From Utricularia gibba (Eukaryota > Streptophyta > Magnoliopsida > Lamiales > Lentibulariaceae), in assembly GCA_002189035.1 (NCBI GenBank), contig NEEC01000009.1, positions 2,480,001 through 2,544,000 of the forward strand: a stretch of 64,000 nucleotides of DNA, in the 5' to 3' direction. The first letter of the stretch is position 1, and every line of letters starts with the position of its first letter. The notes under the pieces are model-generated. The model was not told the DNA's origin, did no database searches, and saw only the letters and a list, made by a program, of their open reading frames with translations. Both the position numbers and the translations under genes were made by a program. Below, in pieces: positions 27,663 through 58,643 of the stretch.

Positions 27663-28429
27663 TCAGACATTGATACGAGGAATGGATTTGGAAGTGGATG
27701 CTTCGTTCTTCAAGCTTGGAACATTTGCTTCGTCTGCTTTTGCGGTCTCCTCTTTCTTGATCTCCTCCTCGATATGCACGTCGTCGTAGATCGTCAGGGC
27801 GACCTTCTTTGTTCCGCGAGGCCCGACCAGGATTTCTTCCTGCACTTTTACATGCTCATCGACCTTGATCTTTTCCAGTTCGTAGGCAGTTCTCTTCTTT
27901 CTCTTCTTAATGCAGCAGAAAATAGCAGCTGCAAGTAATGCCAGGATGAACAGGCCTCCAAATGAGACAAACAGTATGATGATCGTGGAATGGTGTGGAG
28001 TTGGAGGCGGCGGAGGAGGATTCAGGATGTGGGGTGGAGCCGGTATGATCGGCGATGGGCGTGGAGGAGGGAGATGAGCTGGAGGTGGTGCGATAGGTGG
28101 CAACGATGGTGGCAGTGGAGGAACATGGGCCGGCGGCGGAGGAGGTAAATGGGGTGGTGACGGCGGAGGAAAATGCGGCACAGATGGTGCGATCGGTGGC
28201 AAGGATGGTGGCAGTGGAGGAACACGAGCAGGCGGCGGAGGGGGTAAATGGGGTGGAGACGGCGGAGGAAATCGCGGCACAGATGGTGCGATCGGTGGCA
28301 ATGACGGTGGTGGTGGAGCAGCGTGAGCCGGCGGCGGAGGGGGAAATGGGGCGGAGATGGTGTGATCGGCAAGGACGGCGGAGGAGGAGGCAAATTAGCT
28401 AAAATGTCAAAGAAGAAATTGCGAGCCAT
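27663..28429 (-). CDS. TED7-like proline-rich membrane protein (frameshifted)
   Basis: TED6/TED7 are plasma-membrane proteins needed for secondary wall deposition in xylem vessels, where they contact cellulose synthase. The protein starts MARNFFFDILANLPPPPP. A long extracellular proline-rich domain with repeated P-P-I-A-P-S-V-P blocks follows, then a transmembrane helix (IIILFVSFGGLFILALLAAA), a basic KKRKKR stop and a cytosolic tail with VALTIYDDVHIEEEI, a block I associate with TED7. The first 32 codons are in a different frame from the rest. One added base in the G5 run at 28339-28343 (C5 in the gene) joins them into 255 residues. Internal repeats make this region prone to assembly error. 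Confidence 0.8.
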
Positions 28430-56909: not shown

Positions 56910-58643
56910 ATGGAGTTCCTCTCCGGTGTGGCGATTGGAGCAGTTCTTCTTGTGGCTTTTTTGGTGTACTCTAACCGGCGGAGGGGGTCAAAAGGGCTCA
57001 AGAAGACGCCGCCGCCGCAAGCTGGTGGTGCCCGGCCCTTCATTGGCCATCTACATCTCATGAGCGGCACCGCCCATGAGAAGCTTCCGCACTTCCGATT
57101 AGCGACTGTGGCTGAAAAGCACGGCCCCATATTCACCATTCGTATTGGGGTGCACCCGGCGCTGGTTATTAGCAACTGGAAGCTAGCGAAAGAGGTGTTC
57201 GTAGCGAACGACCTCGCAGTTCTCTCTCGGCCGCCGCTGATAGCCGCGGAGCATTTGGGATATAACTCGGCGATGTTTGCGTTTGCTTCCTATGGCCCTT
57301 ATTGGCGGGAAGTCCGGAAGCTTATTACCGTTGAGCTTCTCTCCAGCAAGAAAATGGAGATGCTTAAGCATATCAGAGTAGATGAAATAAATCAGTGTAG
57401 TAGGGAGCTTTATCAGCAGTGGGAGAAGGCAAAAGATTCCTCCGGGAGAGTGTCGGTGGACCTCAAGCGGTGGCTCGGAGATCTGAATCTCAATGTTCAG
57501 GTTAGGATGTAACTTGTGTGTGGAGGGCACAGCCCCCCCCCCCCCCCCTGACTTGGTGTTTTCCAGCTTGGTAACATCGGCCGGCTTGTGTTTGCAGGTT
57601 AGGATGGTGGCCGGAAAAAGATACTTTGGGAAGGGCGAGGATAAGAAGGCGGCCAAGTGTCAGAAAATACTTGAAAACTTTTTCTTTTTGCTGGGAACCT
57701 TTACACCGGCGGACGCCTTGCCGTATCTCCGGGTGGCTGGACTTAGGCGGTTTTGAAAGGAGAATGAAAGAATGTGGGAAAGAGATGGATTCACTCGCCG
57801 GAGAGTGGCTGCAGGAGCACCGACAGGAGCACTCCGGCGACCGAAAACAACAAGATTTCTTGCATATGATGATAGATTTATTGAACAATAACGATAAACG
57901 TCAGGAGTTTGATGCTGATACCATAATCAAATCCACATGTTTGGTAAGCTCTGTTCAAGAGCATCACGTTACACTGCAGATCTTTTGGCATGATGATTTC
58001 ATTAGTGCGCTATCAATTGCAGGGCTTGATTGCTGGCGGTAGCGACAGCCCAACAGTGATGCTGACGTGGATACTCTCGATGCTTCTCAACCACCGCCGC
58101 GTTCTGAAGAAACTTCAGGAAGAACTCGACAACGTCATCGGGAAACACCGAAGAGTCGAGGAATCCGATATCCCTCAACTAGAGTACCTAAACGCCGTCA
58201 TCAAGGAAACATTCCGACTATACCCTCCCGGCCCGCTGGGTGGCCAACGCGTATTCACTGAGGACTGTAAAATTGGCGGATTCCACATCCCCAAAGGCAC
58301 AAGACTGATAGTGAATTTATGGAAATTGCAACGAGACCCTGAAGTTTGGTCGGAGCCATTGGAGTTCAAACCAGAGAGATTCTTGACGACCCACAAAGAC
58401 ATCGACGTGAAGGGCCAGGATTTCGTGCTGACCCCCTTCGGCTCCGGCCGCCGGAGCTGCCCGGCAATCAACTTCGGGCTCCTAATGGTTCAACTTATCT
58501 TGGCTAATTTCTTGCAGGCCTTCGATGTCTGGAACGCCGGCGATGAATTGGTGGACATGACTGAAAGTGCAGGGCTCATCAACGCGAAAGCTACTCCTCT
58601 GGATGTCCTCCTTGCTCCACGACTCTCTTCTGATCTCTATTGA
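56910..58643 (+). CDS. Cytochrome P450, CYP82-like (frameshifted)
   Basis: ER-anchored monooxygenase resembling the CYP82 family, which hydroxylates terpenoids, alkaloids, coumarins or flavones. Exons are 56910-57500, 57598-57943 and 58023-58643, about 518 residues. The anchor is GVAIGAVLLVAFLVYS. GYNSAMFAFASYGPYWREVR is the C-helix, ETFRLYPPGPLGG holds E-x-x-R, FKPERF the PERF motif and FGSGRRSCPAINFG the haem cysteine. The I-helix reads AGGSDSPTV instead of A-G-x-D-T-T, and the haem loop has CPA instead of CPG. In exon 2, PYLR is followed by a frame change: removing one G from GGG at 57731-57733 restores WLDLGGFERRMKEC. The 97-base first intron is flanked by 12-bp direct repeats. Confidence 0.87.
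57533..57548. repeat. C16 homopolymer in P450 intron 1
   Basis: Sixteen consecutive C in a 97-base intron. The length is likely unreliable. Confidence 0.9.

Follow-up and report, generated by a model that had tools for sequence, protein, structure and literature searches.

A candidate intron gain by break repair, framed by a 12-bp direct repeat, in a CYP82-like P450 gene of Utricularia gibba

Introduction

Intron gains that retain marks of their origin are few. The new introns of Daphnia pulex bear terminal repeats of 4–12 bp, and 61% of them contain internal direct repeats (PMC4202315). In plants, where a mechanism is named for a gain, the listed cases involve either tandem duplication or the insertion of a transposon (PMC3443670). 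The locus described here is a P450 gene at positions 56910–58643 of a window of 64,000 nucleotides from Utricularia gibba (the window being the whole stretch of DNA analysed; the gene and its features lie on the forward strand). It carries an extra intron, predicted to be spliced, each of whose borders falls inside a copy of the same 12-bp sequence. The case is plausibly a new instance of a kind of intron gain already known, as in Daphnia.

The gene and its extra intron

The window gene is an A-type P450 of the CYP71 clan, modelled in three exons. The first (56910–57500) ends in ...LNLNVQ; the third (58023–58643) runs to the stop codon and contains the ExxR, PERF and haem-binding motifs. Both match Pfam PF00067, with E-values of 6.4e-18 and 3.4e-58, respectively, which places the gene among the P450s. 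The second exon (57598–57943) starts with VRMVAGKRYFG and is broken by a +1 frameshift. Solved structures tried as family references gave only remote P450 matches, and the narrower placement in CYP82 is putative, made from motifs. Exons 2 and 3 are separated by the usual A-type intron (57944–58022), which is 79 nt long, has no flanking repeat that could be seen, and is in phase 0, the norm for such genes (PMC8467197).

The upstream intron was first remarked on in an earlier note on this DNA, which reported a 12-mer at 57498–57509 and again at 57595–57606, at the two ends of a 97-base intron with a run of 16 C. These observations hold. Both copies of CAGGTTAGGATG are exact, the first lying across the donor site and the second across the acceptor site, each in the context CAG|GTTAGG, and the best splice, CAG|GTTAGG...TTTGCAG|GTTAGG, would remove 57501–57597 as a GT–AG intron of 97 nt in phase 0. 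Such a splice takes out one repeat copy together with the 85-bp insert (57510–57594), and its prediction draws on frame, splice context and paralog alignment. Near the borders, three GT–AG pairs preserve the frame, yielding introns of 97 nt, 103 nt (two residues fewer) and 94 nt (one residue more); the 97-nt splice is preferred because it alone gives a gap-free match to the closest paralogs (L003–L006), reading NVQVRMVAGKR where these have, for example, NVTLMVVAGKR.

Several elements can be recognized inside the insert. By inspection, CTGAC at 57548–57552 is a plausible branch point about 46 nt upstream of the 3′ splice site, judged against the consensus, and TTTTCCAG at 57559–57566 is a competing acceptor-like site that would lose the frame if paired with the donor at 57501. 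An imperfect internal direct repeat joins CTTGTGTGTGGAGG (57513–57526) to CTTGTGTTTGCAGG (57585–57598), identical at 12 of 14 positions, and 4 of 1000 shuffles produced a pair as good. GC content of the 97-nt segment is 59%, whereas the other P450 introns of this genome have a median of 40%; so high a value suits an insert that has yet to be shaped as an intron. The C16 run, at 57533–57548, was considered as a signature of the insertion event and rejected, runs of 16 C being common in this genome (more than 1,100 overlapping matches genome-wide to runs of at least 16 C or G).

The note had also called this intron extra for a CYP82 gene, and comparison within the genome bears this out. Every paralog that aligns across the site (25 of 25, the four nearest included) is without an intron at that position, the usual intron being present separately in the window gene; of 209 CYP71-clan genes in Medicago, 194 contain one phase-0 intron and no other (PMC8467197). 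A single intron is not universal in CYP82, since cucumber CYP82 genes have between 1 and 10 exons (PMC10981884), and a literature search for CYP82 intron positions in published papers returned nothing useful. In a tree of 39 P450 sequences, the window gene is sister to L003–L006, its nearest genes in the same genome, with a local support of 0.90; next outward come L007 (0.98), then L011, L041 and L009 (0.97). No intron is found at the window site in L003–L006, L041 or L009, and the extra segments of L007 and L011 lie at positions other than that of the window intron. From these alignments and the tree, the simplest reading is an intron gain on the window gene's own branch, which may predate the split of this species from its relatives.

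Other A-type paralogs have extra segments of their own. In L007, 104 nt at about 2000–2103, placed some 12 codons further downstream than the window intron, start AAG|GC, end CAG|GT and sit in phase 1, as a possible GC–AG intron. In the CYP81-like L011 (1960–2230), an in-frame segment of 69 nt at about 1993–2061 interrupts AGR|RYY with AAGGTA on both sides, and has the look of a further, independently gained intron at AGGT. The CYP703-like L017 has an intron CAG|GTTTC...TAG|GTCC at GTGSA|G on its reverse strand (about 1440–1500), at a different position in the same region.

A proposed origin by break repair

We consider it reasonably probable that the repair of a staggered double-strand break, precisely at an AGGT site, gave this lineage the 97-nt segment as a spliceosomal intron of its own. 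Such a break would have opened the exon at CAGGTTAGGATG; end joining would have placed about 85 bp of unrelated filler DNA into it, and fill-in of both overhangs would have duplicated the 12 bp. The GT of the first copy would then have become the donor and the AG of the second the acceptor, a single duplication giving both sites because the 12-bp copy includes AGGT. Branch point and pyrimidine-rich end would have been supplied by the insert, and removal of 97 nt by splicing would bring back the original reading frame. Two features of introns born of break repair, a short direct repeat at the intron ends and an insert unrelated to the flanking exon, are both present, and we infer a route by break repair as well as a comparatively young age. 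Against this reading stand the +1 frameshift downstream in exon 2, the one or two such repeats that chance could produce genome-wide, and the Drosophila record, in which gained introns are no more often flanked by repeats than conserved ones (PMC3443670).

Integrity of the gene and age of the intron

The frameshift invites a different account, which we hold to be rather unlikely: the insertion, with its 12-bp duplication, would have disabled a dying gene, splicing would be poor, the protein would end after about 200 codons, and the lesion in exon 2 would have followed later under relaxed selection. Read without splicing, the gene runs into a stop codon immediately past the first repeat copy. 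The +1 frameshift lies at 57731–57733, at the GGG in CGGGTGGCTGG (CGGGTGG, 57730–57736), and the downstream frame reads WLDLGGFE; the earlier note had overlooked it. Group-invariant residues are kept at 79% in the window gene versus 91–99% in L003–L006, though the window gene stands outside that clade. If the gene is a pseudogene, its splicing may be moot. However, all exons are otherwise open, and 29 of 31 deeply conserved positions are retained, as is typical of the paralogs, the two departures being a Ser for the I-helix Thr and an Ala for the last Gly of the haem motif. Excision, moreover, restores the frame exactly, between a donor in good CAG|GT context and a TTTGCAG|GT acceptor. The frameshift is itself ambiguous. 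Apparent frameshifts are seen at 18 of the 58 P450 loci, some of them intron-edge artefacts, which makes an assembly indel at this site plausible. A grapevine P450 survey listed genes with one frameshift as 'putative pseudogenes' and allowed that errors of assembly may lie behind them (PMC6023221). The window gene may be a young pseudogene, or it may carry an assembly indel at 57731–57733.

Elsewhere in the assembly, L020 and L021 are near-identical copies of one P450 region, on contigs of 29.6 kb and 5.67 Mb, that differ by one base in a C run (C7/C6). The pair represents a retained haplotig or a duplicate, and hints at homopolymer error.

For the age of the proposed break-repair intron, the repeat itself offers a loose bound. 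Nine of the 12 bases of the first copy are intronic, and all are still identical to the exon. At an assumed rate near 1e-8 per site per year, 12 bp could stay perfectly identical for as long as some tens of millions of years; the word 'recent', which the earlier note had attached to the gain, is loose for that reason. Oxidative DNA damage has been proposed as a driver of genome change in this small genome. A fuller version of the break-repair reading can be offered only tentatively: a clean, young intron birth, which may still be polymorphic, in a flowering plant whose small genome has been proposed to change through oxidative damage, and in a P450 subclade where relatives of the gene acquired introns of their own no more than about 12 codons away.

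The repeat against chance

Could the intron be older, its ends alike over 12 bp by accident? We regard this as improbable. A rough model, built on assumed splice-site frequencies, puts the chance of such an end repeat at about 2e-5 per intron, or some 2 per 100,000 introns, so that one or two per whole plant genome could arise by chance, and the extra introns of L007, L011 and L017 at other sites are in keeping with an older origin. Within this window, a chance repeat is unlikely. Repeats of 12 bp at a spacing of 60–200 are not rare as such, the window having 14 of them, most inside a glycine-rich tandem array; among AGGT-containing repeats of at least 10 bp at a spacing of 50–300, the CAGGTTAGGATG pair is the only one. 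Genome-wide (100 Mb in 516 contigs), the 12-mer pair with 70–100 bases between its members occurs once. Other P450 loci, scanned over 220 kb, have two repeats of 10 bp and none of at least 12 bp. In-register end repeats at 24 other inferred P450 introns of the genome, several of them approximate models, measure 0–5 bp, and the extra segment of L011, read by hand, has one of 6 bp. The length of the CAGGTTAGGATG repeat is thus above background, and no paralog shares the intron's position, which further argues against an old intron.

The tandem array just mentioned occupies 28006–28374 of the window and has a period near 99 bp.

Source of the insert

The earlier note had left two origins side by side, an insertion with duplication of 12 bp and a local duplication whose copies provide donor and acceptor. 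The first fits the anatomy; the second fares poorly. If an exon segment with AGGT had been duplicated in tandem and had then decayed, the AGGT at both ends would be accounted for, as the tandem duplication model has it (PMC3443670). Yet identity directly outside the perfect 12 bp falls to chance, at 8 of 30 positions upstream and 5 of 30 downstream, and the insert is no more like the flanking exons than shuffled sequence is on the forward strand. A search for a templated copy of the flanks likewise gave no signal on that strand, and on the reverse strand 26 of 300 shuffles did equally well, which is not significant. Because decay should not spare 12 bases entirely while erasing all likeness next to them, tandem duplication is disfavoured, and we give it very little weight.

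Slighter still is the case for a small transposon, or an element akin to introners, that duplicated a 12-bp target site. A direct repeat does flank the 85-bp insert, as such an element would require. The insert is, however, single copy: BLAST of the whole intron and searches with three patterns of 21–24 nt, allowing up to 3 mismatches, found no other copy in the genome. Inspection revealed neither terminal inverted repeats nor a poly(A) tail, and on these grounds a transposon or introner origin is disfavoured; land plants, in addition, have yielded no introners (PMC9860276). That the assembly created the insert by an error around the C16 run is scarcely credible, for although homopolymer indels do separate contig copies (the C7/C6 difference above), homopolymer errors do not yield a unique 85-bp insert with exact splice geometry, and the length of the C run alone is suspect.

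Comparison with known systems

If the intron is spliced and young, it would be a plant case in which an insertion that duplicated 12 bp supplied both splice sites; as a single case, it leaves the general picture unchanged. Its closest likeness is to the new introns of Daphnia pulex ascribed to staggered double-strand-break repair, with which it shares an unrelated insert and internal direct repeats (PMC4202315). The two differ in how the gain is known: in Daphnia it follows directly from presence and absence alleles (PMC4202315), whereas here it is deduced from paralogs and the splicing is predicted. As in the potato RdRp gene (PMC4974935), a plant gene owes a splice site to a duplication, but the potato intron is itself duplicated gene sequence, while in the window gene 12 bp only are duplicated and the interior is unrelated. 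With introners it has in common an insertion with target duplication that is spliced out (here by prediction), in contrast to which, as multicopy elements (PMC9860276), the present insert is single copy. Finally, direct repeats near intron borders have been reported to be common (PMC11782384), and the CAGGTTAGGATG copies, which span both borders, resemble them in this respect. Those repeats are mostly imperfect and need not be in register (PMC11782384); the pair described here matches at all 12 positions and sits exactly in register.
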